Shown: positions 3,846 to 27,903 of the stretch, in pieces
Layout of the letters: each line of letters opens with the position of its first letter
Position numbering within the stretch: the stretch's first letter is position 1
Origin: Deltaproteobacteria bacterium
Lineage (GTDB): Bacteria > Myxococcota_A > UBA796 > UBA9615
Length of the DNA stretch: 32,251 nucleotides
Assembly (NCBI GenBank): GCA_002724675.1
Contig: PBPL01000210.1
Location: forward strand, 1-32,251
Direction of reading: 5' to 3'
Notes under the pieces: generated by a model
What the model was told of the DNA's origin: nothing
What the model saw: only the letters and a program-made list of their open reading frames with translations
Databases searched by the model: none
Translations under genes and position numbers: made by a program

Positions 3846-6698
3846 GTGCGTCTCCGACTGGCCATCACGGCGTTCTTCCTGTTGTCCGGTGCAACGGGAC
3901 TGATCTACCAAGTGATCTGGGTTCGTCTCTTGGGCCTCATCGTTGGGCACTCGGTGCTGGCTATCTCTACGGTCGTCGCCACGTTCATGGCGGGGCTGGG
4001 TATTGGTGCACGACTGGCAGGTGGCCGCGCCCAGCGTTCGTCGCATCCGTTGGTGATCTACGGGGTGCTCGAGATCGGGATCGGCTTGCTCGCGGCGGTC
4101 TCTCCCTGGTGGCTGGGGATGGGCACATCGCTCTTCCATGCCGTGGGCGCGGGCGCCGGCGGAGCAGGAGGAGGCCTGTCGCTGGTGGGCGTCCTGTTGG
4201 TGGCTGTGCTCGTGTTGCTGCCACCCACATTGGCTATGGGTGCCACGCTGCCGCTCCTGACGCGCTGGTACGCCCGGGATGAGGCGAGCCTTGGTCTCGA
4301 CATGGGTTGGCTCTATGCCATCAACACCACGGGGGCGGTGGGTGGCGCCGCCTTGGCAGGCTTTGTCCTGCTCCCTGTCTTGGGGCAGCCGACGACACTG
4401 GGTCTTGCGGCAACAGTGAATGGACTCGTGGGGCTCTGTGCCGTCCTGTTGGGCCGGCTCTATCCCCTAGCGCCGAAGCGAGCGAGCACCGAAGAGACCG
4501 TGGCCCCGTCCCCTCCGTCCGCTCCCTTGCCGGGCCTGGACAGTGGGCAGGTGGCTGTGGGCGGTGTCCTGTTGGCTTTCGGGCTCTCGGGTGCTGCGGC
4601 GATGGTCAACCAAGTGGCTTGGAGTCGTTCGTTCGAGTTGTTCGTCGGCTCTACGACCTACGCGTTCAGCTTGATCGTCTGTGCCTTCATCTCGGGCCTG
4701 GCGCTCGGTGGACATGTGTTTGCCCGTCGGGTGGATAGGTCTCCAGATCGTGTGGCCTTGCTGGCCTCGGTGAATGTGGGCATCGCCATAGCTGGTGCAG
4801 TCCTCATCCCTCTCTTGGGCGAGCTGCCGCTCTTGCTCCTCCGTCCTGTCGCTGCCCTCTCTGGCTCGTTCCTGGCAATGCAGTGGTTCACCTTTGGCTC
4901 GCTGTTCGCCCTGGTGCTCTTGCCGACTTTCTTGATGGGGGCGACCTACCCCGTGGCGACCCGCGCGCTCGTGGGCGCGCCGGACCAAGCGGCCATTGCA
5001 GTCGGTCGGGCTTACGGCTGGAACACTGCCGGGGCGGTGCTTGGCGCTCTCTGCGCGGGCATGGTGATGGTCCCCTGGTTGCAGCTGCGCGGCACGCTGT
5101 GGCTGGCGGTGGCGCTCAACCTGGCGGCGGCGGCGGTGTTGTTGGGACCCCGACGCAAGCTGTCCTACGCCCTGCCTCTCTTGGGCGCGCTGGGGATGAT
5201 CGCGACCCCTGCTTGGAATCCGCGCCACATGAACTTGGCCCCCCACATGTATGCCCGGGACCTGGTTGAGGACCCGGAAGCACTCCGTGCAATGCGCGAT
5301 CAGGGCAGCGTGCTCTTCCATGAAGAGGGCATGGGCGCCACCGTGACCGTGCTTCAGCGGCCGGAGGGGGCTCGTGTCTTGCGCATCAACGGCAAGACCG
5401 ATGCCTCGACCCAGAGCGACCGGCTCGGTCAGGGCTTTCTCGGCCATCTACCGCTCTTGCTGGCTCGTGATCGTGGAAGCGCGCTGATGATTGGCTTGGG
5501 CTCGGGCATGAGCCTGGGCTCGGTGTTGTCCCATCCTGTCGAGCGCTTGAAGGTCGTTGAGTTGCTCCCCGAAGTGTACCGGGCCGCAGAACACTTCGAC
5601 GCCATGCTGGGAGGTCCGCTGACCGATCCGCGCACCGAGGTGGTGTTGGGTGACGGTAGACAAGTGCTGCTCTATGGCGAGCAGCAGTTTGATGCTGTGA
5701 TCAGCCAGCCCACCAATCTGTTCGTCTCGGGGATCAGTTCTCTGTTTACCGTGGAGGCCTTCGAGGCCATGGAGCAGGCCCTGCGCCCTGGGGGCGTTGC
5801 TGCAGTGTGGCTGCAGGGCTACTTGCTGCCCAGTGACGACTTCAAGACTATTTGCCGCACCTTTCAGGAGGTCTTTCCGGGCGCAACGCTCTGGAACGCA
5901 GGCCCCTTTGACTACTATCTGGTGGGCCGCGAAGCCAAGGGGGCCGCCGGCGTGGTGCCAGTCGCCTCTGCTCTGCTCGACCAGCGCCTGGCAGAGACCG
6001 CGGACTCTCTAGCTGGCAACTGGACCGGTCTGCAGGAGGTGGTCGATCTGCAGCGCCACTTCCTCATGGACTCGTCGGCGCTGCGAGACTTCGTTGGCCA
6101 GGGCCCCGTACAGCGTGACAGGGATCCGTTCCTGGAGTTCAGCGTCCCGCGTGGCCTCTATGGTGGCGAGGGGCTTCTGGATGTGCCCGAGCTGCTAGAG
6201 CAGCGGCTTCTGTTGCCTGTCGAGCCGCCCAACCCCCAGCTAGAGGCGCTGCTCTTAGCTAGGCGTACGGCGGTGGGCCCCATTGAGCGGGCCGCGCTCG
6301 CTTCGGATCTCCCGGAACTCCTGGAGAGTGAAGCCGGCGATCTCGGCCACCCCTTCTTGCGGGAGCGGAAGGCTCGACTACTGCACGAGGATGCCTTGGC
6401 GCGGGGACGAGCGGGGGACCTCCAAGCCGCAGAGCGTGGTGCGCGCGAGGTGTGTGAGCTGGCGCCCGACTCGTTGCCAGGTTGGCGCCTTCGATCGTTT
6501 CTCAGGCATCTTCAGGGGGACTCGGTGGGGGCGGTGGAGATGTTGCGGACAGCAACGGCGGTGCAGCCGTGGAATGTCTACGCTCACCTGGCTCTCGCTC
6601 GCTACCTGGAGCAGGAGGGCCGCACCGAAGAGGCCTCCCTGGCTTACGAAGAGGTGCTCAGGCTCGACCCGTCGTTGCCGGAGCTCGACACTCCCTGA
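3846..6698 (+). CDS. Fused multi-spanning membrane protein with spermidine-synthase-like and TPR domains
   Basis: A 950-residue protein starting at a GTG 17 nt after the amidohydrolase. Residues 1 to about 460 are a chain of hydrophobic helices in two similar halves, each with GLIYQVIWVR / AAMVNQVAWSR and AMGATLPLLTRW / LMGATYPVATRAL motifs, as in the fused MFS/spermidine-synthase family. Residues about 500-760 hold a Rossmann methyltransferase-like fold: MIGLGSGMSLG, then VVELLPEV, LGDGRQVL and DAVISQPTN. True spermidine synthases have an acidic D-S-[ST]-D-P type active site; here that stretch is SQPTN, as in the membrane-bound relatives, so polyamine synthesis should not be assumed. The tail, about 855-945, forms TPR-like helical pairs ending EEVLRLDPSLPEL. 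Substrate and role are unknown. Its 3' end overlaps the convergent MFS gene by 55 nt. Confidence 0.85.
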   Translation: MRLRLAITAFFLLSGATGLIYQVIWVRLLGLIVGHSVLAISTVVATFMAGLGIGARLAGGRAQRSSHPLVIYGVLEIGIGLLAAVSPWWLGMGTSLFHAVGAGAGGAGGGLSLVGVLLVAVLVLLPPTLAMGATLPLLTRWYARDEASLGLDMGWLYAINTTGAVGGAALAGFVLLPVLGQPTTLGLAATVNGLVGLCAVLLGRLYPLAPKRASTEETVAPSPPSAPLPGLDSGQVAVGGVLLAFGLSGAAAMVNQVAWSRSFELFVGSTTYAFSLIVCAFISGLALGGHVFARRVDRSPDRVALLASVNVGIAIAGAVLIPLLGELPLLLLRPVAALSGSFLAMQWFTFGSLFALVLLPTFLMGATYPVATRALVGAPDQAAIAVGRAYGWNTAGAVLGALCAGMVMVPWLQLRGTLWLAVALNLAAAAVLLGPRRKLSYALPLLGALGMIATPAWNPRHMNLAPHMYARDLVEDPEALRAMRDQGSVLFHEEGMGATVTVLQRPEGARVLRINGKTDASTQSDRLGQGFLGHLPLLLARDRGSALMIGLGSGMSLGSVLSHPVERLKVVELLPEVYRAAEHFDAMLGGPLTDPRTEVVLGDGRQVLLYGEQQFDAVISQPTNLFVSGISSLFTVEAFEAMEQALRPGGVAAVWLQGYLLPSDDFKTICRTFQEVFPGATLWNAGPFDYYLVGREAKGAAGVVPVASALLDQRLAETADSLAGNWTGLQEVVDLQRHFLMDSSALRDFVGQGPVQRDRDPFLEFSVPRGLYGGEGLLDVPELLEQRLLLPVEPPNPQLEALLLARRTAVGPIERAALASDLPELLESEAGDLGHPFLRERKARLLHEDALARGRAGDLQAAERGAREVCELAPDSLPGWRLRSFLRHLQGDSVGAVEMLRTATAVQPWNVYAHLALARYLEQEGRTEEASLAYEEVLRLDPSLPELDTP

Positions 6699-11752: not shown

Positions 11753-13753
11753 TCAGTCGGGATCACAGGGCCCTTCACAGAAGTGCATCACCTGTCCCTC
11801 GGGCTGGAAGAATGCACCCATCTGAAGTTGAGCACCCTCGGTGTAGCGCTGGTCACCATGGGTGTCATTGTCTTCGCTAGGCGCCTGGTTTCCTTCCGGT
11901 GGAGCTTCGGCATTGAAGTCGTAGTAGACGTAGGCTGAGTCCACGGGGCCTGCAGCATCCGACACGCCCCAGATGGGTTCCCGGGCCGGAGCAAGTTGGG
12001 GGATCTCCATTGTCCTTACCGCGATGTCGGAGGCGAGGTTGGGCACCTGGGAGTCGTGCCGAGCCACCTGGTAGAGAATTTGCTTCGCTGGTGTGTTGGG
12101 TGCTGGGTCGCGCACCAAGTGGGGCATCCAGGCGTTGGGCTCGGCTCCGTCCCAGAGGGTGATCATCAAGCTCATGAGGATCTCCCGGTCGATGCGCTCC
12201 GGGTACCAGGTCTTGTAGATGACTTCGTACTCCTCGAAGTCTACGGACCGTCCGATCATCAGGGGATAGTTCATGGCACCCACCAGCAGAGCACCCTTGA
12301 GGGTGTCTTGGCTGAGGCCCATGACAGTTCCTCCCATGATTCCGCCCTGCGAGATGCCTAGGTAGTAGGGCTCGCCCTCGGCGATCACTTGTACCCCCTT
12401 GGCTTGTAGCTGGGGGAGATCTCGGCAAGCGCCCAGGAACGATCGGACCATGACCAATTGGTTAATCACACCCTGCATGAGCCGATCGCCTACGGCTGGA
12501 AACGAGCTCACATTGGAGAGCGCAGTGCCCACCACGACGATGTCCCGCTCGGACATGCCTTGCCAGTCGGTGGCGACACTCACGAAGTTGAAGCGATTGG
12601 CGAAGCGACGGACAAAGTTGCTGCCGCCCTCGTCGGCTGCCGCGCCCATGAGTCCATGGCCAAAGCTGAGCAGATGTCCCGGTCCCCGAGCGGTCAGCGC
12701 CGAATGGGGGACCATGAGGGTGAAGGGGGCATCCGCCCAGCCCTGGAACTCGGGTAGGCCATCTGGCCCCCGGACAACGCGAGCTCCTGAAACATCACGG
12801 TCCATATAGAGCGGGATCTTGAAGGTGCCGTCCAACCGCCGGAAGACTTGGTCCGAGTAGTCCTCCCGAACAGTCTCGACTGTGCACTCGCCACCACCGA
12901 CCGGAACCCGCTGCATGGCGTCGTCTCGCATCGCGAGGAGGTCACCGCGTGTCGTCTGAGCGCTGGCGGTGTGGAATCGCCAGGCTTGAACCAGTTCTGT
13001 GCGGTCCACACCCGCGCGCTCGAGGGTCTCGAACAGTTCTTCGTAGCTGGCCCGGCGGTCTTCGATGATGGCCGAGGTCGTGGGTGTACCGTCCCGCAGG
13101 GCACGGAATGGTGGGAACGTCTCTGCGTCGGTGCCATCCACCAGCCGGAGATTCCGTAGCGCCACGCCATAGTCGGTGTCTTCGTCCAGACGCCAAGCGG
13201 GCCTGAGGTACAGCAGTGTGGGGGCTGGAGCCAACCCCTCGGGGATGTCTTCCTGGGCTCGGGCGTCAATCTCGACCATGTGGGGGACCCACTCACCCGT
13301 GTCCAGGTTGATCAGTATGGTCGGGCTCTCTGCTGCCAGTGACAGTCCCCACTCACCCTCGACCGCTAGCCCTGGAGTCGCCTCGGTGTCCACAGCGCTA
13401 GGGAACACCGTGAGCAGTGTCGACGACGGCGAGAACCCGTCACGGATGTTGTATGCGCTGACATCAAAGGTGTCCCGTTGGATGTTTTCGGGGATCGCGA
13501 GCGGGTCGTAGTTGAGCCGGTAGCCGGTCTCAGTACTGGGATCGTCGGTAAGCCAGCGGTCGGACGGCCAGGGCAACATGCAGTGCATGGGGTTTGTGCC
13601 CTCGCACCACGAGTCGACTGCGACTTCAATGGGATCCGGGGCGAGCTCCCCGCAGGCGACCAGCATGCAGAGAGTCGCGATCGTCGCCGGGATGGAGCGC
13701 CGGACCGGGCGAGATGACCGGACCAGAGACCGGGAGGCTACGGACGGAAGCAT
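11753..13753 (-). CDS. Lipoprotein alpha/beta hydrolase, VolA-like
   Basis: A 666-residue predicted lipoprotein. The ATG at 13753 is chosen because it opens a basic, hydrophobic signal ending in the lipobox LVACG; the track start at 13798 adds 15 residues and spoils it. The early part (NPMHCMLPWPSDRWLTDD) resembles the N-terminal region of VolA-type surface lipases, in which Pro-Phe-Pro and Asp-rich text precedes a variable domain. The hydrolase core is in the second half: FGHGLMG (an HG oxyanion-hole type motif) and the nucleophile elbow GISQGGIMGG. A lipid or ester substrate is plausible but not shown. The protein ends CEGPCDPD. It is probably anchored to the outer membrane, and is divergent from the exported protein at 13819. 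Confidence 0.75.
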   Translation of the reverse strand: MLPSVASRSLVRSSRPVRRSIPATIATLCMLVACGELAPDPIEVAVDSWCEGTNPMHCMLPWPSDRWLTDDPSTETGYRLNYDPLAIPENIQRDTFDVSAYNIRDGFSPSSTLLTVFPSAVDTEATPGLAVEGEWGLSLAAESPTILINLDTGEWVPHMVEIDARAQEDIPEGLAPAPTLLYLRPAWRLDEDTDYGVALRNLRLVDGTDAETFPPFRALRDGTPTTSAIIEDRRASYEELFETLERAGVDRTELVQAWRFHTASAQTTRGDLLAMRDDAMQRVPVGGGECTVETVREDYSDQVFRRLDGTFKIPLYMDRDVSGARVVRGPDGLPEFQGWADAPFTLMVPHSALTARGPGHLLSFGHGLMGAAADEGGSNFVRRFANRFNFVSVATDWQGMSERDIVVVGTALSNVSSFPAVGDRLMQGVINQLVMVRSFLGACRDLPQLQAKGVQVIAEGEPYYLGISQGGIMGGTVMGLSQDTLKGALLVGAMNYPLMIGRSVDFEEYEVIYKTWYPERIDREILMSLMITLWDGAEPNAWMPHLVRDPAPNTPAKQILYQVARHDSQVPNLASDIAVRTMEIPQLAPAREPIWGVSDAAGPVDSAYVYYDFNAEAPPEGNQAPSEDNDTHGDQRYTEGAQLQMGAFFQPEGQVMHFCEGPCDPD

Positions 13754-13760
13754 GGCAGGG

Positions 13761-13766
13761 ACCCTA
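13761..13766 (-). promoter_or_regulatory. Candidate -10 element (TAGGGT) for the lipoprotein hydrolase
   Basis: Minus-strand TAGGGT lies 7 nt before the ATG at 13753. Only a weak AGGG could act as ribosome-binding site, and it overlaps the hexamer, so a leaderless start is possible. Confidence 0.3.
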
Positions 13767-13788
13767 CACCACGGCTGGTGACGGTGGG

Positions 13789-13794
13789 TAGACT
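13789..13794 (+). promoter_or_regulatory. Candidate -10 element (TAGACT) for the exported protein gene
   Basis: GGGTAGACTTC on the plus strand, 24 nt before the GTG at 13819. The leader would contain the GGGAG ribosome-binding site at 13808-13812. Divergent from the TAGGGT element of the neighbour. Confidence 0.4.
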
Positions 13795-13818
13795 TCAAGC
13801 CTGTCTCTGGGAGTTCTC

Positions 13819-15511: not shown

Positions 15512-15556
15512 CATGGTTGGTGACCCTGGGTCCCGATCTCCACTCGTGTGGATCCT

Positions 15557-15615
15557 AGGAGGCGCACCGGGTACCATGCGGCCGCGGGTCCTGGCCCGAC
15601 CCCTGGACGCCTCCT
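15557..15615 (+). promoter_or_regulatory. thyA leader: AGGAGGCG / CGCCTCCT stem and a possible upstream ORF
   Basis: An excellent ribosome-binding sequence AGGAGG (15557-15562) does not precede thyA directly. It lies 13 nt before an ATG at 15576 that is out of frame with thyA and opens 58 codons overlapping its start. AGGAGGCG (15557-15564) is exactly complementary to CGCCTCCT (15608-15615), which ends one base before the thyA GTG. The loop holds a second hairpin, CGGG-TCCTGG-CCCG. Pairing would hide the ribosome-binding site. Confidence 0.4.
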
Positions 15616-15616
15616 C

Positions 15617-16459
15617 GTGCAGCCTTATCTACATCTCTTGCAGCGCATCCTCGATGAAGGCAAGGCCCGAGAGGACCGAACCGGAACGGGCACACTCGGT
15701 GTCTTTGGGCACCAGATGCGCTTCGATATGGCCGACGGCTTTCCGTTGTTGACCACCAAGAAACTGCACCTCCGGTCGATCATTCATGAGCTCTTGTGGT
15801 TCCTGTCTGGAGACACGCATGTGGCCCCACTGCAGGCGCAGGGGGTGCGCATCTGGAATGAGTGGGCGACGGCCGAGGAGTGTGGACGCTTTGGCCGGGC
15901 AGAGGGGGACTTGGGACCTATCTATGGTCACCAGTGGCGCAACTTTGGGGCTACCGTCACTGCAGACGGAGCCTACGAAAAGGACGGGGTGGATCAGATC
16001 CAGCGGCTGCTGGATGGCATTCAGAACAACCCGTGGAGTCGTCGACACATCGTGACGGGCTGGAATCCCAAGGAGGCCGATCAGGTCACTCTTCCCCCCT
16101 GTCACACGCTGTTCCAGTTTCATGTTCAAGACGGAAAGCTGAGTTGCCAGCTCTACCAGCGCAGCGCCGACGTGTTTCTGGGGGTACCGTTCAATATTGC
16201 CAGCTATGCGCTGCTGACGATGATGATCGCCCAGGTCTGTGGGCTGCAGCCTGGGGACTTCGTGCACACCCTGGGGGATGCACACCTCTACAGCAATCAC
16301 CTGGACCAGGCACGCTTGCAGCTGAGCCGTACGCCTCGGCCCCGGCCTCGTATGGTCTTGAACGACACCGTGACCCGGTTGTTGGATTTCCGATACGAGG
16401 ATTTCCGACTCGAGGACTACGATCCACATCCACACATCAAGGCGGCGGTGGCGGTCTAG
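15617..16459 (+). CDS. thyA: Thymidylate synthase
   Basis: Makes dTMP from dUMP using methylene-tetrahydrofolate as carbon donor and reductant, yielding dihydrofolate. The 280-residue protein shows RTGTGT (phosphate loop, residues 21-26), [42 protein letters not shown], the catalytic Cys in [11 protein letters not shown] (C162), [20 protein letters not shown] and the closing [10 protein letters not shown]. Length is normal for the family. The GTG at 15617 is chosen because [15 protein letters not shown] aligns with the usual ThyA N-terminus; the track's GTG at 15548 adds 23 unlikely residues. folA follows after 23 nt, and its product recycles the dihydrofolate made here, so the two are surely one operon. 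Confidence 0.95.
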
Positions 16460-16482
16460 ACCCGCCGCTTCAGGGCGAGTAA

Positions 16483-16986
16483 GTGGCCATGGAGGTTCTT
16501 CCGGAGGCAGCGCCCTTGGCTCTGGTCGTCGCGGTGAGTCGGAATGGGGTGATCGGTCGCGATGGCGGACTCCCGTGGCACTACCGAGAGGATCTTCGTC
16601 ACTTTCGGGCTGTGACACTGCACCACGCAGTCATCATGGGTCGGAAGACCTGGGAGTCCATTGGAAAGCCCCTGCCCAAGCGGCGCAACATTGTTGTCAC
16701 TCGGCAGCGCGAGCTGGTTCTTCCTGGTTGTGAGGTTGCGGGCAGTCTTGACCACGCCATTACGCTGGCCCGTACTACCGACACGGAGCCTCGCATCATT
16801 GGCGGTGCGGCTCTGTATTCCCTGGCGCTGCCGTTGGCTACTCGACTGCTCTTGACTGAGATCGACGAGGAGGTCGATGGAGACACCCATTTTCCTCCAC
16901 TGGACCCGAGTCGTTGGTTGGAACACTCCCGGCGCGTCGGTGAAGATCCGAAGCTCGTGTTTCGTGACCTTCGGGTCCGGCGTTGA
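16483..16986 (+). CDS. folA: Dihydrofolate reductase
   Basis: Reduces dihydrofolate to tetrahydrofolate with NADPH, closing the thymidylate cycle with ThyA. The 167-residue protein has ALVVAVSRNGVIGRDGGLPW (substrate and cofactor loop), the acidic active-site residue in REDLRHF (D37), VIMGRKTWESIGKPLPKRRNIVVTR (NADPH-binding), RIIGGAALYSLAL and LLLTEIDEEVDGDTHFP. This is the full canonical set and normal length. The start may be GTG 16483 or ATG 16489, with the purine-rich AGGGCGAG upstream. It lies 23 nt after thyA. The final codons contain a perfect TTGACA used below as a -35 for the next gene. Confidence 0.95.
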   Translation: MAMEVLPEAAPLALVVAVSRNGVIGRDGGLPWHYREDLRHFRAVTLHHAVIMGRKTWESIGKPLPKRRNIVVTRQRELVLPGCEVAGSLDHAITLARTTDTEPRIIGGAALYSLALPLATRLLLTEIDEEVDGDTHFPPLDPSRWLEHSRRVGEDPKLVFRDLRVRR

Positions 16987-19019: not shown

Positions 19020-20789
19020 ATGGCTGCGAAGGAGGCAACGCCGGGCGGCCCACACACACGTCGCGGTTACATCGCGCTCGTGTATGGGCTTCAGAAGGCT
19101 CGGCGAACGGGGATTCTAGAGGTCCGCAGCGCGAGGCACTGGCGTCGCCTGTACGTGATCGATGGCGTCCCCTGTTGGTCAGCGAGTGACCGGATCGATG
19201 ATGAGCTTGCTCGTTCGCTGGTGCAGTCGGGGGCGATTCGAGAGAAGGAGCTCTCGCAGTTTCGGCGCGAGTTGGGTCCTTATGATGGGCTCGGCAAGGC
19301 ACTTCTGGCCGCAGGCAAGCTGGATGGGTCTAGCCTGGCCGAACACCGCTTGATGCTCGTAGAGCCCGGTGTGGGTGCGCCTGTGGGCTGGGACCGAGGG
19401 GACTGGAGCTTCACAGCTCGCGACGGGCTGCCTCTGGACGCGTTGGATCCGGGCCTGTTGCCCCCGGTGTCTGCGCTCCGGGGTCTCTGGGAGGCGGTGT
19501 GTCATTTCGTTCGTATGGATGAGGCGCTGCCTGCGGTTGTGGATACCGCGGCTGGTCCACTGCGGCCCGAACCCGGCTTGACCCGGACCTTGCCGACGCT
19601 GGGCCTCAAGGATCCACTGGATGGATTCGCTGCGAGTCTGGGTGAGGGCATTGCCGTGGATGCTCTGTTCAAGAAGATCCCGGATCGGTCGGGTCACCTT
19701 GTCTTGCTGGTGTGGTTCTTACAGATGGTGGGCCTCATCCGGCGTGACGAGGCTGCCATGGAACAAGGGCTGCTCAAGCTGGCGGAGGGGCGCGATCTGC
19801 TGTCGGCATCTGCTCTCATGTGGCCCGACTACGGTGAACCCTCCCCCGATTCTTCCCAGCCGGCACAGGGACCTGCTGGCCGTGTTTCTCCGCCGGTCAA
19901 GGCGCCGAAGGCCAAGGCCCAGGCCGCTGGGCCGAAGGTCGCCCCCTCTGCGCGCAAGGCTGTACAGGGTCAAGGAACCCGCCGAACTGGCTCCCGTGCG
20001 GAGGGGACCTTTGCTCACGAGAACCGCCGGGCGAAGAAGTCCAAGGGGCTCGGGAAGGAAGTGGAGCACCTGGCGCGGCTCATTCGCACCGCACACCGCC
20101 ATCGTATGGGCCAGGACTTCTATGGGTTCCTCGATCTTGCCCGCACTGCTGATGGCGGTGAAATTCAAGATGCCTACGACCGACTGACACGGGGATGGCA
20201 GGCGGCTGCAAGCAATTCAGGCCTGCCCGAGGAGGACCGGCGGCTGGTGGATGAGTTGAACGCGGCGGCCATTCTGGTCTGGCAGACCCTCTCCGATGCT
20301 CGGCAGCGCGACGAGTATGACAGTCGCCTGGCGGCGGGAACGGCGCCGGTCTTGTCTGGGGGGGGGCAAGAGGACCTGCTGCCGCCCACCTCTGCTCTCG
20401 GCGAAGGGGATCTACTTCCGGAGCACGCGAAGGCTCGCAAGCTCATGGAGCGGGGCAACTTTCGGGAGGCGCTCCTCATGCTGGAAGATCTGCGCGAGGG
20501 CCAACCCTCGTCGCCCGAAGTGCTCGCCGACTTGGGCTGGTGTGCTTGGCGTACCAAACACATGGGTGGCGACGGGAATGATGGCCCAGAGGACTTCCTG
20601 TTGCTGGCCCACACCTTCGAGCCCCGATGTGTTCGGGCCCTGGAGTTCCTCGCTCGGATAGCGAAAGAGAAGCAGGACCTGGCGAAGCTCAAGACCTGGA
20701 CAAAGCGGCTCATAGCGGTCGTACCCGATCACGCGTGGGCCAAGTCCGAGTTGAAGAAGGCCTCTGCCGGCCGTGGCTCGCGCAAGTAG
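19020..20789 (+). CDS. DUF4388 (PATAN) protein with degenerate J-like domain and TPR tail
   Basis: A 589-residue cytoplasmic protein. Residues about 15-125 match DUF4388/PATAN (ARRTGILEVRS, RLYVIDGVPCWSAS, GAIREKELSQF, GLGKALLAAGKLD, WDRGDWSFT). A second helical module covers 185-265 (DALFKKIPDRSGHLVLLVWF). A Pro/Ala/Lys linker (about 280-345) leads to a J-domain-like segment (about 362-440: FYGFLDLARTADGGEIQDAY, then WQTLSDARQRDEYDSRL) in which the HPD tripeptide needed to stimulate DnaK is absent. The tail is TPR-like (ARKLMERGNFREALLMLEDL, FEPRCVRALEFLARIAKEKQ). PATAN domains are known in cyanobacterial phototaxis regulators and motility-linked Myxococcota proteins. Start ATG with GGGG upstream. 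The pseudo-receiver gene follows 28 nt later. Confidence 0.8.
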   Translation: MAAKEATPGGPHTRRGYIALVYGLQKARRTGILEVRSARHWRRLYVIDGVPCWSASDRIDDELARSLVQSGAIREKELSQFRRELGPYDGLGKALLAAGKLDGSSLAEHRLMLVEPGVGAPVGWDRGDWSFTARDGLPLDALDPGLLPPVSALRGLWEAVCHFVRMDEALPAVVDTAAGPLRPEPGLTRTLPTLGLKDPLDGFAASLGEGIAVDALFKKIPDRSGHLVLLVWFLQMVGLIRRDEAAMEQGLLKLAEGRDLLSASALMWPDYGEPSPDSSQPAQGPAGRVSPPVKAPKAKAQAAGPKVAPSARKAVQGQGTRRTGSRAEGTFAHENRRAKKSKGLGKEVEHLARLIRTAHRHRMGQDFYGFLDLARTADGGEIQDAYDRLTRGWQAAASNSGLPEEDRRLVDELNAAAILVWQTLSDARQRDEYDSRLAAGTAPVLSGGGQEDLLPPTSALGEGDLLPEHAKARKLMERGNFREALLMLEDLREGQPSSPEVLADLGWCAWRTKHMGGDGNDGPEDFLLLAHTFEPRCVRALEFLARIAKEKQDLAKLKTWTKRLIAVVPDHAWAKSELKKASAGRGSRK

Positions 20790-20817
20790 TGGAAGAGAAG
20801 GGCCTAGGAAAGACTCG

Positions 20818-23800
20818 ATGACGTCTCTCGAAGACACCAACTACGTGCTGGTCGCCGACTCGGACGCCCGATCTGCTCGTTACTTTCGCGGTCGCCTGTC
20901 GGAGAGCGGTATGGAGGTCGTGGTGTTGTCGGAGCCCGATGCCGTGGTCGACGAGGCCAAGCGGACTCGGCCAGCGCTGATCGCGCTCTCGGCTGACGAG
21001 GGTGACTGGCAGACCCTCTGCTCTCGCCTCCGGGGCCAGGAAGGGTTGTCGGATGTCCCCCTGGTGGTGATGACGGCGGGCTTGTCTGCCGCCGAGATGG
21101 TACTGCACTGGTTCGAAGAGGAGCGTGCTGCGGCTTACGTCCGCAAGCCACTCGATGGTGACTTCCTTGATGAGCACCTCCTGGCGTTGTTCCCGGGCAA
21201 GGTCAGCCTGAGGCCGCTGGGGGCTGCCTGGGAAGAACGGCCTACGGGAGTCTTGGAGGCGATCGAAGACGACGACGACGAGCTCGAGGATGAGGTCGCA
21301 CCGGTCCGCGCGCCGGCCTCGCAGGCTCAGATCGACGAATTGCAGTCGATGGCAGCTGCGATGGCTGGGCTCGAAGCGGAGCTGGAGGAACTCCGTGCGA
21401 GGGCGGCAGAGGGCGACGCACTCAGAACTGAGTCCGAGTCGCTGCGGGATGAGTTGGCGTCACTGCGCAGCCAGTCGGCAGACGAGACGAGCGGGTTGGA
21501 CTCAGTGCGCAAGCAGCTGAAGGAGGCCCAGGACGAGCTCGCGCGGCGCAGGGGTTTTGTGGAGGACCAGGCGCAGCGCCTCAAGGAGATGGACGCTAAG
21601 GAGCGTTCTCGGGCTGCGGAGCAAGCTGGCATTCAGGCCACGCTCACCGAGACACTCGAGACTCTGGATGCCGTTCGGGCGGAGGCCGATCGTCGGGCGC
21701 AAGAGAGTGAGATGGCCGCGGACATGCTCAGGGCTCGTCTCCAGACCATCATCGCCGAGCGGGATGAACTCCAGACCTCTGTGAAGGACCTCCAGGTGGC
21801 CCGGGAGACTGACGCAGCTCAAGGTGAAGAGTCTCTGCGCATGGGCCAAGAGGCTGCGGAACGTGAGGCATCCGCCCTGGAGAGAATCGAGGCCTTGGAG
21901 GTCTCGGCTCGGGCGGCGGCACAGGACGCTGCTCGTGCCGCTGAGGAAGCGGCGAAACGGCACGCTGCCGAGCTGGATGGGCTGCGTAGCGAGCTCGAAG
22001 AGGCCGCAGCGAGCCATGTGGAGCAACTAGAAGCACTGCGCGCTGAACACTCGTTGTCCGAGGGTCGTCTGTCCGAGGCCGCTGCGATCCGTGAAGAACT
22101 CGAAGCGGCTGTTGTGGCGGAGAGGACCGAGGCGGAGGCTGTTAAGTCCGCACTCGAGGGAAGCGTTGCTGAACATCAAGCTCAGGCTGAGGCTGCCCGT
22201 GCTCGGCTGGAAGAGGTCGTCGCTTCCCAGAAGGCTGAGCTGGAGGCCATGGAGGCTCGCCTCGAAGAGACCGCTGCTGCCGGGGCAGCGGAGTCTGAGG
22301 CCGCTCGCACCGGGTTCGAGCGGGACCTCGCCGAGAGGACGGCCGAGTTGGAAGCCTCGCGCACCGAGCTGGAGCGCGCGGTTGCCTCCCACGAGCAACA
22401 GGTTGCGCTCCTGACATCCCAACTCGAGGCTGGAGCGGCGACGCAGGCTGAGTTGGTCGCATCGCTCGAGGGTCAATTGGCGCAGGCCATGACGGACAAG
22501 GACGAGGCGGCCGAGCGGGTGGGTGCCCAGCTGGAGCAGGCTGCTGAGCGCCACCAGGAGGAGGTCCAAGCGCTGCGGTCTCAGATGGAAGAAGCAAGAG
22601 AACGCCACGATGGAGTTGCGGCGGCACTACAGGCTGAGTTGGAGCAAGCGGCTGATCTGCATGCCGAGCAGACTCGAGTCCTCCAAGCGACGGTGGACGC
22701 TACCCAGGCCGAGCATAGCGATGAGACCTCGTCCCTACGGGCTGAGCTGGATGCGCTGCAGGACCAGCAGGACAGCCGCGAACGCTCGGCGGCTGAGGCG
22801 CTCGATGCCGCCAAGCTTGCCCAAGCCGCAGAAGTGGAGGCCCTCCAGGACCAACTGAAGATCACTATGGCCGAACACGCCGAGGAGATCGCAGAACTGC
22901 GCCTCAAGCTCCAGGCCGATGCGGACGGTCACGCCGAAGAAGCGGCCTCGCTGCGTCGCTCGCTCGAAGAGGCGAGAGCCGAGTCGGAGCTCCAGGTCGC
23001 GTCTCTTCGCGTCGAGCTGGAGAGCGCTCTGGCCGAGCGAGACCTGGAAGAGAGCTCGCTCCGGGAGGAGTTGGAGTCCCTCCGAGCCCTGGGTGAGACG
23101 CAAGAGAGTTCCTTGCGGGATCAGCGGGAAGCGGAGCGTGCCGAGCACGATGCAGAGCTCCAGACGCTGAGGGGGGAGTTGGCGGAGCTCCGGGAAGAGT
23201 ACGAGGACTTCTGCGACTCCAGCGATCGCGAACTGGCGGATCTCTTGACCCAGATCGAGTCTGCCGAGGAGCATGCCGCCGACGGTCTAGAGGACGCAGA
23301 GCAGCGCATCGCGGCGCTCCGCACCGAGCGAGATTTGCTGCAGGGTTCCGTGAGTCGACTTCAGGCAGAGACCCACACGCTCGAAGACCGGCTGGCGGAG
23401 AGCGCCCGAGCAATCCAGAAACAGGCCGATGACTTCGAAGAGCGCAGCCTTCGTCAGGAGTCCGATGCTGCTGCACGAGTCGATGCCCTCGTCGCAGAGA
23501 GCGCAGACGAGCTAGAGGCCGCTCGGCAGCGGGCATCGGATCTCGAGGAGTGGAGTCGTGCCGAACTGGAGGCGGCCGAACAACGGCTGAGCTCCGTGGT
23601 GGAGGAGCGGGACCGCTTGCGTGGTGATCTGGAAGCTCGGGAGGAGAGCCTTCGCGGCGAGTTGAACGCTCTCAGAGAGCGTGCGGAACAGGAAAGCCAG
23701 GAACTGAAGAACACCTTGGACAGCGTCCGCCAGGCTGCCGAGGAGCAGGCGGCTTCGAGTCGCCAGGACCTGCTTGCTGCCAATAAGCGGGAGGCTGAAT

Positions 23801-23979
23801 TGGAGGCCCAATCCGAGCAACTGCGTGAGGAGATGCGAGTCAAGGAAGCACTCTTTGCGGAAGACGAGGAGTTCCGTAAGGACGAGAATGAGTTCCTTCG
23901 CGACGAACTGGACGAGTTGCGCGAGGAAGTGGACACGCTGCGTCGCGAACTCGAGTCATCGGATGGGCAGGAAGATTGA
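20818..23979 (+). CDS. Pseudo-receiver / long coiled-coil protein (FrzS/AglZ-like architecture)
   Basis: A 1053-residue protein. The ATG at 20818 has AGGAAAG five bases upstream; the track's start at 20773 runs into the previous gene. Residues 8-125 fold as a response-regulator receiver (YVLVADSDARSARYFRGRL, PLVVMTAG, AYVRKPLDG). Acidic D14/D16, T86 and K110 are kept, but the phosphoacceptor position reads PALIALS, with Ser58 in place of Asp. An acidic hinge (EDDDDELEDE) follows. Residues about 170-1050 are an almost unbroken Ala/Glu/Leu/Arg coiled coil. The same layout is found in the Myxococcus polarity and motility proteins FrzS and AglZ, where the receiver binds partners without phosphorylation. 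Family identity is inferred from architecture alone. A filamentous scaffold is likely. Confidence 0.8.
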   Translation: MTSLEDTNYVLVADSDARSARYFRGRLSESGMEVVVLSEPDAVVDEAKRTRPALIALSADEGDWQTLCSRLRGQEGLSDVPLVVMTAGLSAAEMVLHWFEEERAAAYVRKPLDGDFLDEHLLALFPGKVSLRPLGAAWEERPTGVLEAIEDDDDELEDEVAPVRAPASQAQIDELQSMAAAMAGLEAELEELRARAAEGDALRTESESLRDELASLRSQSADETSGLDSVRKQLKEAQDELARRRGFVEDQAQRLKEMDAKERSRAAEQAGIQATLTETLETLDAVRAEADRRAQESEMAADMLRARLQTIIAERDELQTSVKDLQVARETDAAQGEESLRMGQEAAEREASALERIEALEVSARAAAQDAARAAEEAAKRHAAELDGLRSELEEAAASHVEQLEALRAEHSLSEGRLSEAAAIREELEAAVVAERTEAEAVKSALEGSVAEHQAQAEAARARLEEVVASQKAELEAMEARLEETAAAGAAESEAARTGFERDLAERTAELEASRTELERAVASHEQQVALLTSQLEAGAATQAELVASLEGQLAQAMTDKDEAAERVGAQLEQAAERHQEEVQALRSQMEEARERHDGVAAALQAELEQAADLHAEQTRVLQATVDATQAEHSDETSSLRAELDALQDQQDSRERSAAEALDAAKLAQAAEVEALQDQLKITMAEHAEEIAELRLKLQADADGHAEEAASLRRSLEEARAESELQVASLRVELESALAERDLEESSLREELESLRALGETQESSLRDQREAERAEHDAELQTLRGELAELREEYEDFCDSSDRELADLLTQIESAEEHAADGLEDAEQRIAALRTERDLLQGSVSRLQAETHTLEDRLAESARAIQKQADDFEERSLRQESDAAARVDALVAESADELEAARQRASDLEEWSRAELEAAEQRLSSVVEERDRLRGDLEAREESLRGELNALRERAEQESQELKNTLDSVRQAAEEQAASSRQDLLAANKREAELEAQSEQLREEMRVKEALFAEDEEFRKDENEFLRDELDELREEVDTLRRELESSDGQED

Positions 23980-24129: not shown

Positions 24130-27100
24130 ATGATGAAGTTTCAAGGTCGCCTCTCGATGCCAGTCTGGCTTTCCGTAATAGTCCTCGCCTTACTGGGCCT
24201 CACCGTGACGGGCTGTCCCGAAGCCCGCCCACCGGTCGATCAGACCCAGGCGCTTCCCATCGCCAAGGCCATGTTCGATGGCGAGTGGTACTTCCAGCGC
24301 ACGGTCATCGACACACCTTGGGCGTCCGAGTTCACATTCGTGGGGGACCAGGGAGAACTGGACCGAGTCCGGTGGCGCATCGAAGAGGGCTTTCTCGTGG
24401 CGGTTCGTAGCTACGAGCGCTTCGATGGCTCGGACCCTGATCGCAACGCTGATGGGAACTATGAGGGTGAACCGGTGGCAGCGTGGCCCATCGTTAGTCA
24501 CTTCGATGTGCGACGCGAGTACAACACCACAACCGGCGAAGAGACGAACGTCATTGTCGAGAACACAAGTGATCGCCAGTGGTTCGAGCGAGACTACATT
24601 CGGGTCGACTGGTCGCAGAACGTCATCACGAACTGGAACTTCTGGGCGCCCAACTTCGTCGAGATGGATGCCCTGGCCTATGCCGTCAGCGACCCGAGCG
24701 ACCCGAGGGCACCCGTGGTCGAGGACAACTACCTGGATGTGACCTCGGCGTTCGTGGCCAAGCCGCTGACGGCGGTGGACCCCGATTACCCTGAGGATGG
24801 GGCGATGCCCCTGTGTTGGTATTTCTATCACTTCGATGACTGCACGGCGGCGGAAGTGGTGGTCCGCAACTCGTTCCTGAAGGTGGAGGACCGGCAGTTC
24901 GAGGCGCAGCCGTGGGACGGCATCGACATGGAGCTGTTCGGCTACTTCGATGTGCAGCGGCCCACGTACGACGAGCAGTACGGTCCCACCAATACGGGTC
25001 GGCTTCGCTATCAGTCCAAGTGGAACATCTGGGAGAGCAGCCACGATGGGCGAAGCTGCAGCCTGGATGCGGAGTGCGAAGACGTCGTGGGCTCGCACTG
25101 CGACGAGCTGGAGGGGCAATGCACCCTGCCGTACCGGGAACGCGAGACACGCCGCATTGTCTGGCACACGTCCCCGGATCTGGACTCTCGCTTTGCCGAA
25201 GTGGTGGACGAGGTGGTCGACCAGTGGAACGAGCCCATGCGGGACACTGTGAACACCTTGCGTGTCTACGAGTGCATCGACGCCGGTGGTGACGAGGGGG
25301 ATTGTCAGTCAGAGATCGATGACGACATCGAGATCTTCGCCTTCTGTCCCAACAACCCGGTGCAGGAAGACGATCCGTCCTACTGCGGTGAGGCCGGCTT
25401 GGCCCCGCGCCTGGGAGACCTTCGCTACAACTTTCTCTACAACGTGCCCCATGCTGGTCGTGGCAATCCCTTTGGCTTCGGCCCGGCACAGCTCGATCCC
25501 CTGACCGGTGAGATCGTCTCGGCGGCCGCCTTGGTCTACGAGGCTGAGATCCGTTCGTACGGGGCTTGGGCCCGAGATCTCGTTCAGCTCATCAATGGTG
25601 AGATCGCAGAGGAAGACTTCATCGACGGTGAGAACGTCTCCGATTGGATTGCAGCGCGCAATTCCGTGCCCACCCAGCCGGTGGAGTACAGCGAAGAGGA
25701 GGCGGAGCGGCTGGCTTCCAAGGTCCAGCTGCAGTATCGCCACACGTTACCCTCGCTGGGTAATGGCGACCGCAGTCCTCGAGCGAAGGTCGAGATGAGG
25801 CGTGCGGTGCTCGATGTCTTGAGGGACCACCCGGCCGTGTCTTCGGATCACGGCGGAGCTTCTGCGCGCCTGGACGCCTTGATTGGTTCCCCATTGGAGC
25901 AACTGGCCCTCACCGAAGAGGACTTGCTGGCAGCGGCGATGGTGCCGGGTGGGCCCACGTCAGACGCAGTCTTGGAGGCGGCCTCTCCGTTGCGGCAGGT
26001 CCGCGCTCAGCGCTTTCGAAAGGCTCGGAACGCGAGGCTCGAGCGGAATGCTCGCAGGTGCGCCTACTTCCGGGACTTCGTGGACCCCTCGGTGGAGGGC
26101 GAAGCCCACCGCTATGCAGGGATGGATCCCGAAGAGATCCGGTGGGAGATCATGCTCGGGGTCTACCGTGGAACGATGGCCCATGAGATGGGCCACACCA
26201 TTGGGCTTCGCCACAACCTGGAGGGGAGCGCTGACCCCTTCAACTACGACTCGATGTATTGGCTGCTCCGCGACGATGGAGACATGGGGCCGCGCTACCT
26301 GGATCCAGAGACGTCCATTGAGGTGGAGGCCGGCATTCGGCAGCATCAGTACTCGTCGGTCATGGACTACCTGAGCCGGTTCAACAGCGACCATCTGGGT
26401 GCGCAGAGCTACGACAAGGCGGCGGTCAAGTTCGGTTACGGCCGGGTGATGGAGGTGATGACCGACGCAGGGTTCAATGACTGGCTGCTCAACGACGAAT
26501 ACATCGCCCACCTCACCGGATTCCTGCAGCCCTTTAACTATGAGGATGATGGGTCACTGTGGGGCATCCACTACACAGATTACCCCGCCTACTATGGTGA
26601 CCTGCAGGCTCGTCGCGACGTGCCCCAGCGCTTGCTGAGTGACTTCCACGGTATTGCTGAGTGGTGGGGGTCTCCGCACACGCAGCTGGCAACGGAACTG
26701 GGCGAGCCGGTTGTCCCTTATCGATTCTGTTCGGATGAGTTCGTTGGCTCGGCCTTCAAGTGTCTCTACTTCGACGAGGGGGCCGACCTGTATGAGATCC
26801 CTACGGATCTCGCGCAACGCTACGAGCGCTATTACATCCTCAACAACTTCGCTCGAGACCAGATGTACTTCAACGCTGATGGGCACGCGTGGCGCATCTG
26901 GGACAGGTATTTCGACCCCATGATCGGCTTGAACCAGTGGTGGGTTCTCGAAAACCAGTTCCTCCATGCCGGTGAAGAGGAGGACGCCGATGTGGATGGC
27001 TATTTCCAGAGGTATGACGGCTATGGGCCATTCACGATGGGCGTGCGAGAGAGCTTCAATGTGTTCGCTCGCACTCTGGCTCGACCAGAGCCCGGCGGCT

Positions 27101-27903
27101 ATGGCCTGGTGACCGATGCGGACGGAAATCAGCAGTGGAACCCGCTGTGGTGGTCTGAAGATTTCACCGTCGGCGTGAATGATGGGCGCTACCTGAGCAC
27201 GGACTGGGACTACGAGGAGGGATACTTTTGGGACGAGGCCATTACGCGGGTAGGGTTCTTCTCCAACAAGATCCTGGCCATGGAGGCGCTCTTCGACCCG
27301 ACGACCTATTTCCTGGGACAGGACACGGCGGCGGATCTGCGGGGCTTCCGAGTCAACTACGGCGCGAACTTCTTCGAGCCGCTCATGGACCTTGTGGGCG
27401 ATCTCATCGTAGGGGACACGGCAGGCTTTGCCCCCTACGAGGTGGATGGTCAGGTCGTCTTTCCCGACTACGCGGACTATCCCGCCACAGCCCCAGGCGG
27501 TGGTGTTCCCATTGATCCCAACGCAGGCTTCACGATTCAGCTGCACACCATGTTGTTGGGGCTCGCCCTCTTGCCAGACACGTTCGACTCGGACTTCATC
27601 GACTCGACTCGTCTCTGGCTCGACGGTGACAATGCGCCAGTGACCGATCGCCCGCTTGTCTCGCACTCCGATCCGGAAAGCGGTCTCACCTGGGTGGCGA
27701 TATCGTATGCAGATGACGAGGGCGTAGAGGAGGGGATCGGAGCTCGTATGCTGATCCGAGCCAACGCGTACGCGAGCCATCTGGAAAGCGGTAGTCTCAC
27801 GGAAGAAGAGACGGTGCGTGTCGAACAACAGCTCGGTCTGCACCGCGAGAACCTGAACCTGATGCGCGCGATCCACATGGAGTTGGGCGTGCTGAGTTAC
27901 TGA
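24130..27903 (+). CDS. Large zinc-dependent metalloprotease lipoprotein (metzincin)
   Basis: A 1257-residue predicted lipoprotein. The ATG follows GGGAG by four bases; the signal ends in LTVTGC. The zinc site HEMGHTIGLRHN (685-696) is an HExxHxxGxxH metzincin motif, and the Met-turn SSVMDY lies near residue 745. The HE[MV]GHT[IL]GLRHN plus S[SV]VMDY combination is that of the DUF4953/DUF5117-type bacterial metalloproteases. The first 650 residues are beta-rich, with Cys clusters around 315-340 (RSCSLDAECEDVVGSHCDEL); the last 450 residues have many aromatic residues and no motif I recognise. It would act on the cell surface or outside. Substrate unknown; nutrient or predatory proteolysis is a guess. 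A small lipoprotein gene follows after 28 nt. Confidence 0.87.
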   Translation: MMKFQGRLSMPVWLSVIVLALLGLTVTGCPEARPPVDQTQALPIAKAMFDGEWYFQRTVIDTPWASEFTFVGDQGELDRVRWRIEEGFLVAVRSYERFDGSDPDRNADGNYEGEPVAAWPIVSHFDVRREYNTTTGEETNVIVENTSDRQWFERDYIRVDWSQNVITNWNFWAPNFVEMDALAYAVSDPSDPRAPVVEDNYLDVTSAFVAKPLTAVDPDYPEDGAMPLCWYFYHFDDCTAAEVVVRNSFLKVEDRQFEAQPWDGIDMELFGYFDVQRPTYDEQYGPTNTGRLRYQSKWNIWESSHDGRSCSLDAECEDVVGSHCDELEGQCTLPYRERETRRIVWHTSPDLDSRFAEVVDEVVDQWNEPMRDTVNTLRVYECIDAGGDEGDCQSEIDDDIEIFAFCPNNPVQEDDPSYCGEAGLAPRLGDLRYNFLYNVPHAGRGNPFGFGPAQLDPLTGEIVSAAALVYEAEIRSYGAWARDLVQLINGEIAEEDFIDGENVSDWIAARNSVPTQPVEYSEEEAERLASKVQLQYRHTLPSLGNGDRSPRAKVEMRRAVLDVLRDHPAVSSDHGGASARLDALIGSPLEQLALTEEDLLAAAMVPGGPTSDAVLEAASPLRQVRAQRFRKARNARLERNARRCAYFRDFVDPSVEGEAHRYAGMDPEEIRWEIMLGVYRGTMAHEMGHTIGLRHNLEGSADPFNYDSMYWLLRDDGDMGPRYLDPETSIEVEAGIRQHQYSSVMDYLSRFNSDHLGAQSYDKAAVKFGYGRVMEVMTDAGFNDWLLNDEYIAHLTGFLQPFNYEDDGSLWGIHYTDYPAYYGDLQARRDVPQRLLSDFHGIAEWWGSPHTQLATELGEPVVPYRFCSDEFVGSAFKCLYFDEGADLYEIPTDLAQRYERYYILNNFARDQMYFNADGHAWRIWDRYFDPMIGLNQWWVLENQFLHAGEEEDADVDGYFQRYDGYGPFTMGVRESFNVFARTLARPEPGGYGLVTDADGNQQWNPLWWSEDFTVGVNDGRYLSTDWDYEEGYFWDEAITRVGFFSNKILAMEALFDPTTYFLGQDTAADLRGFRVNYGANFFEPLMDLVGDLIVGDTAGFAPYEVDGQVVFPDYADYPATAPGGGVPIDPNAGFTIQLHTMLLGLALLPDTFDSDFIDSTRLWLDGDNAPVTDRPLVSHSDPESGLTWVAISYADDEGVEEGIGARMLIRANAYASHLESGSLTEEETVRVEQQLGLHRENLNLMRAIHMELGVLSY

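Follow-up and report, generated by a model that had tools for sequence, protein, structure and literature searches.

In Myxococcus xanthus, the protein SgmX is recruited by MglA. SgmX contains 14 TPRs and binds MglA (PMC11580455), and it is reported to be bound by the pseudo-receiver of FrzS and to bring about the polar placement of PilB (PMC11580455, PMC12632262). In the same accounts, the coiled coil of FrzS is described as sufficient on its own for polar localisation (PMC11580455, PMC12632262). Two PATAN proteins co-occur with SgmX (PMC11580455). The FrzS pseudo-receiver carries Ser at the position of CheY Asp13 and Ala at that of Asp57, retains Lys105, and has essential residues in His92 and Tyr102. 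Asp55, at the +2 position, is dispensable, and neither Mg2+ nor BeF3 binds to FrzS (PMC1974792).

PATAN domains are also found, in combination with CheY-like receivers, in cyanobacterial regulators of the PixE, PixG and PatA type. Cyanobacterial PATAN domains are reported to bind PilB directly (PMC10519157, PMC7690835), and PatA, a PATAN protein of cyanobacteria, has been connected with the divisome (PMC7380572).

Both kinds of component occur in two neighbouring genes, here called A and B, within a stretch of 32,251 nucleotides from a deltaproteobacterium (contig PBPL01000210.1 of assembly GCA_002724675.1), referred to as the window. A preliminary description, made from the sequence alone, had given the pair as open reading frames of 589 and 1053 residues with 28 nt between them, and the coordinates were confirmed on the plus strand. 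The pair shares with the PixE/PixG/PatA-type regulators the combination of PATAN and receiver, and differs from them in that its pseudo-receiver resides on a separate scaffold protein and in that A adds J-like and TPR domains. Pfam detects no receiver in gene A, which does not itself unite PATAN and a CheY-like receiver in one protein. The features of A, and the gap that follows it, are:

19020 to 20789, plus strand: gene A, encoding a 589-residue protein with PATAN (DUF4388) domain, helical middle, linker, J-like domain and TPRs; open reading frame with ATG start, AF2 model with mean pLDDT 73
19089 to 19415, plus strand: PATAN/DUF4388 domain, residues 24-132; Pfam 19.5 bits against a cut-off of 25, strands and helices in the AF2 model
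20025 to 20333, plus strand: J-like helical domain, residues 336-438, with the Pfam DnaJ match at 366-434 (19.3 bits); helices in the AF2 model
20199 to 20207, plus strand: tripeptide equivalent to HPD, Gln-Ala-Ala (residues 394-396), read from the sequence
20418 to 20768, plus strand: C-terminal TPR domain, residues 467-583; Pfam, family profile and PDB fold matches are TPR domains
20790 to 20817, plus strand: intergenic gap of 28 nt between the stop of A and the start of B, read from the sequence

Single-sequence Pfam matches in both proteins fall below the cut-offs, and the domain reading of the preliminary description (PATAN/DUF4388, J-like and TPR for A) therefore required testing. In A, these sub-threshold matches are to DUF4388 (19.5 bits, residues 24-132), DnaJ (19.3 bits, 366-434) and TPR_16 (25.3 bits, 470-513). 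With relatives included the reading becomes firm: DUF4388 exceeds the Pfam cut-off in three orthologs of A (26-43 bits), and a profile of 14 A relatives matches solved DnaJ structures at 1.5e-8 as well as TPR structures. In the AF2 model of A (pLDDT 73, pTM 0.45), a PATAN-like sheet accompanied by helices is followed by a helical middle; a disordered linker (residues 271-342) then leads to a helical J-like unit and to the TPR block at 467-583. The leading Foldseek matches of the model are TPR folds. In the family alignment the TPR block is the best-conserved region of A.

The J-like unit shares its helical fold with DnaJ/Hsp40 co-chaperones, as the profile match indicates, and differs from them in its key residues. 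Absence of HPD had been read from the window sequence, where Gln-Ala-Ala occupies residues 394-396, and it extends to all 12 family members that retain the segment. In the A copies at L072 and L073 the segment is missing entirely. A role of the segment as a DnaK co-chaperone is thereby rejected. As to the earlier suggestion that the J-like domain is a pure binding surface, two copies of the module have lost it and remained paired, so the segment is dispensable and probably does not provide the main site of binding.

As a TPR protein, A is comparable to SgmX, of which it is the proposed functional counterpart, docking on a FrzS-type pseudo-receiver and acting on PilB. SgmX has an array of about 14 TPRs with an MglA-binding C-terminus; A differs from it in having only a short TPR block together with PATAN and J-like domains, and in coming from a genome in which no MglA was found.

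The genome of the window also encodes two proteins, at L077:448-2802 (G000:C256) and L078:2-1900 (G000:C171), in which receiver, PATAN, J and TPR parts form a single chain. Their receivers are N-terminal and carry the canonical acidic residues; the PATAN, J and TPR parts are common to these proteins and A, in identical order, the receiver being fused only in the former. No receiver-coiled-coil partner was seen next to either gene. The fusions independently support a functional connection of the PATAN-J-TPR parts with a receiver, and A is related to the larger response-regulator family that they represent. A second A-type paralog of the family, present without a B gene at L075:8124-9827 and L076:6594-8657, adjoins a gene for an FAD-dependent oxidoreductase.

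Gene B encodes the putative scaffold, with the following features:

20818 to 23979, plus strand: gene B, encoding a 1053-residue protein with pseudo-receiver and long coiled coil; open reading frame with ATG start
20842 to 21189, plus strand: pseudo-receiver domain, residues 9-124; FrzS is the best match by phmmer, profile and Foldseek
20860 to 20862, plus strand: Ser15, by alignment at the position of CheY Asp13 (FrzS Ser10)
20989 to 20997, plus strand: Ser58 (phosphoacceptor position) and Asp60 (+2), by alignment the equivalents of FrzS Ala53 and Asp55
21106 to 21138, plus strand: output-face residues His97 and Tyr107, by alignment the equivalents of FrzS His92 and Tyr102 (FrzS mutant data, PMC1974792)
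21358 to 23976, plus strand: coiled-coil tail, residues 181-1053, without proline and with heptad-like period

An alternative GTG start at 20773, 15 codons upstream, would make B overlap A. The single-sequence Pfam match of B is to Response_reg (19.4 bits at 10-119). Among PDB sequences, the best phmmer match of the receiver is FrzS (2gkg, 4.7e-7), and the receiver profile matches FrzS at 2.7e-14. The Foldseek comparison returned the same protein as best domain match of the AF2 receiver model (pLDDT 81). In a phylogenetic tree with some long branches, B, FrzS and FrzS-like receivers are grouped apart from other receivers (98/90), and the B receivers constitute a subgroup of their own (90/83) within the FrzS-containing group. 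The likeness of B to FrzS and AglZ drawn in the preliminary description is thus supported by sequence, fold and phylogeny, with AglZ being likened by architecture and not by sequence.

B and FrzS have in common an N-terminal pseudo-receiver followed by a long coiled coil, the replacement of Asp13 by Ser, the loss of Asp57, the +2 Asp, and the retained His, Tyr and Lys, the latter being Lys110 in the window's B (the counterpart of FrzS Lys105). They differ in several respects: identity is only about 28%; B belongs to a separate clade that always adjoins a PATAN-J-TPR gene and occurs mostly in genomes without strong MglA; and the CheY Thr87 position is occupied by Thr in B and by Gly in FrzS. 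Across the 11 B receivers, Asp is never present at the CheY Asp13 position, and the phosphoacceptor Asp (CheY Asp57 position) is lost in eight and retained in three relatives. The +2 Asp is kept in nine, the output-face His in eight and the Tyr in nine. Judged by its residues, the receiver of B is a pseudo-receiver as defined in PMC12632262.

Ser58 does align with CheY Asp57, as had been stated. An alternative is that B is a phosphorylated response regulator acting through Asp60 (or through the standard Asp in three relatives), with A as its output protein. Such a role would fit the +2 Asp in 9/11 receivers, the phosphoacceptor Asp in three, and the canonical acidic residues of the fused paralogs. 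However, none of the 11 sequences has Asp at the metal-binding position of CheY Asp13, and FrzS neither needs Asp55 nor binds Mg2+ or BeF3 (PMC1974792). Since this FrzS counterpart is unnecessary for FrzS function, Asp60 does not rescue a phosphorelay; it is unlikely to be a functional phosphosite, and we consider the phosphorylated regulator a very poor prospect.

Beyond residue 180, B consists of 873 proline-free residues with a hydrophobic period of 3.58 residues, the power of which was equalled by none of 300 shuffles, and the nearly 900 residues of coiled coil noted previously are borne out. Relatives of B reach about 1600 residues, with the same arrangement of receiver and very long coil. 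A conserved C-terminal module of about 90 residues (W..KE.AIG..I.ELL...P..VY.LL..LQ) ends the B proteins of L066, L067, L070, L072:1-663 and L074; the window's B (23780-23976) and its nearest relative terminate instead in FAEDEEFR..EN..LR.ELD.LREEL.

Conserved adjacency in relatives had been named as a check on the pairing. When 58 related genomes were searched for A and, separately, for the B receiver, the matches lay next to each other in ten genomes, which belong to four families; A is immediately 5′ of B there, and both genes share a strand. This recurrence shows that the adjacency is not due to chance. Spacing in the relatives is tighter than the 28 nt of the window, the genes overlapping by 1 nt at one extreme and being separated by about 10 nt at the other. 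In a scan of 71 genomes of the class, 11 B-type receivers were found in ten, all of them directly 3′ of an A gene, and no unlinked B-type receiver was found. The receiver profile gives these 11 values of about 1e-43 to 1e-50, against 1e-23 or worse for the receivers that follow; it was built from the linked B receivers and so matches them by construction. None of 42 other receiver loci (flanks up to 1.5 kb) has an A neighbour, and none of nine FrzS-like loci of other classes, with larger flanks, has an A-like neighbour. A search with a J-TPR fragment in 189 genomes gave matches in nine genomes, mostly of this class; a contig search with a tighter A alignment gave seven loci, and one with the single A protein gave no match.

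One family (f9) carries two A-B pairs, one of them without the J segment, so the module was duplicated as a unit. The second pair, lacking J, lies at L072:6575-8056 and L073:2707-4341. Since L072 begins with the end of the B gene of the first pair (1-663), the two pairs lie a few kb apart. Divergence of A (TPR) and of B (receiver) is correlated (r=0.75, 0/5000 permutations) in a comparison that ignores species relatedness.

The window itself places the genes for thyA and a dihydrofolate reductase (15548-16986) ahead of the pair, and four genomes of the window's family preserve the order thyA-folA-A-B. This preserved block is what one would see if A and B were unrelated genes without shared function, held together by the general synteny of a thyA-folA neighbourhood. 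Outside the family, however, the flanking genes vary while A and B stay together, with the genes touching, and one family has duplicated the pair; hardly any weight is left to synteny. A-B is a genuine, conserved two-gene module. The partnership of A and B is well supported, and linkage supports the earlier proposal that A is the dedicated partner of the pseudo-receiver scaffold. That the two proteins bind each other is probable.

Only A-B is retained beyond the family, and as a clue to function the neighbouring genes are uninformative. Directly after B, at 24130-27903, the window contains a 1257-residue Met-zincin (DUF4953) metalloprotease whose nearest relative is 73% identical. Farther away are a 950-residue protein that combines a spermidine synthase-like domain with TPRs at its C-terminus (3846-6698) and a 680-residue protein without Pfam match (11753-13798), the nearest relative of which is 61% identical.

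The distribution of MglA sets the module apart from the M. xanthus system. In the window's genome, which is 90% complete, MglA gave no match even at E<=1, using a probe sequence for which strong matches in other genomes of the class served as positive control. Strong MglA (42-54% identity) is present in 26/58 genomes but in only one of the ten carriers of the pair (p 0.017, with relatedness ignored), and the depletion among carriers persists within PilB-positive genomes (p 0.006, again ignoring relatedness). Three further carriers have weak MglA-like matches only (32-34% identity). The module is therefore not simply an MglA-SgmX-FrzS circuit, and any action on pili would be MglA-free in most carriers.

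The same distribution bears on the possibility that B is of the AglZ type and that the module serves gliding motility within an MglA-dependent complex. B does resemble AglZ in combining a receiver with a very long coil. Against this, only 1/10 genomes has strong MglA together with the pair, no MglA was detected in the genome of the window, and A is missing next to the nine FrzS-like genes examined in other classes; a gliding role is accordingly improbable.

PilB exceeds the cut-off in 9/10 carriers and in 27/48 other genomes (p=0.07, relatedness being ignored), a link that is weak and confounded by descent, since PilB is common in the class (36/58). Most families of the class have PilB; in the genomes of family f3, none has PilB over the family cut-off. 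The window's genome has PilB (G000, C165:22989-24662) but contains 11 matches to PilB-type ATPases in all, and the client of the module could thus be a secretion ATPase.

We tentatively propose that A-B is a cytoplasmic module in which a FrzS-type scaffold and an adaptor recruit the type IV pilus motor without MglA. The coiled coil of B would form a long multimeric rod at a fixed cell site, for which the pole is the likely location. The polarity function that the preliminary description had given to the pair is thus a reasonable, if tentative, extension. The pseudo-receiver head, without the residues for a normal cycle of Asp phosphorylation, would offer its His97/Tyr107 face as a docking site. 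On this head A would dock, most probably through its TPRs, by analogy with SgmX on FrzS. The PATAN domain of A might then hold or activate a PilB-type ATPase, as in the cyanobacterial PATAN regulators, and the motor would be recruited in the absence of MglA.

Some points tell against this proposal. The PATAN match is sub-threshold in A itself and PATAN-PilB binding is known only from cyanobacteria; PilB is put forward as client with some reserve. In addition, not every member of the B clade has the His and the Tyr, and the phosphoacceptor Asp persists in three relatives.

A and B may also constitute a scaffold pair with another client, namely the division site, the envelope, secretion machinery or another PilB-like or GspE-like ATPase, and not type IV pili. 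The reported divisome link of PatA (PMC7380572) and the 11 PilB-type ATPase matches agree with such a client. So does the neighbourhood: the neighbours examined beside the pair include no recognisable pilus or motility gene, and those in the family are thyA and the dihydrofolate reductase gene. Type IV pili are nevertheless what FrzS and the PATAN regulators act on, the characterised proteins to which the two halves are most closely related, and true PilB is present in 9/10 carriers. We regard a client of this kind as a serious, if somewhat doubtful, prospect.

The scaffold of the A-B module is of the known FrzS class; its partner is new, as is the apparent lack of MglA. The stronger claim, that this is an undescribed MglA-independent module which places pilus extension motors and which, in a single deltaproteobacterial lineage, takes the place of the MglA-SgmX-FrzS chain, is unlikely on present evidence. 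FrzS belongs to a small number of pseudo-receivers for which a partner has been identified, and the way in which these heads function when they are not phosphorylated is an unsettled matter (PMC12632262). A-B offers a natural two-gene version of this arrangement, in which linkage points to the partner and MglA is apparently not involved. If the pilus motor reading of A-B is true, the FrzS-type scaffold would be a docking platform open to reuse, and one easily reconstituted complex would unite PATAN domains with FrzS-type heads, two kinds of pilus regulator otherwise known separately.
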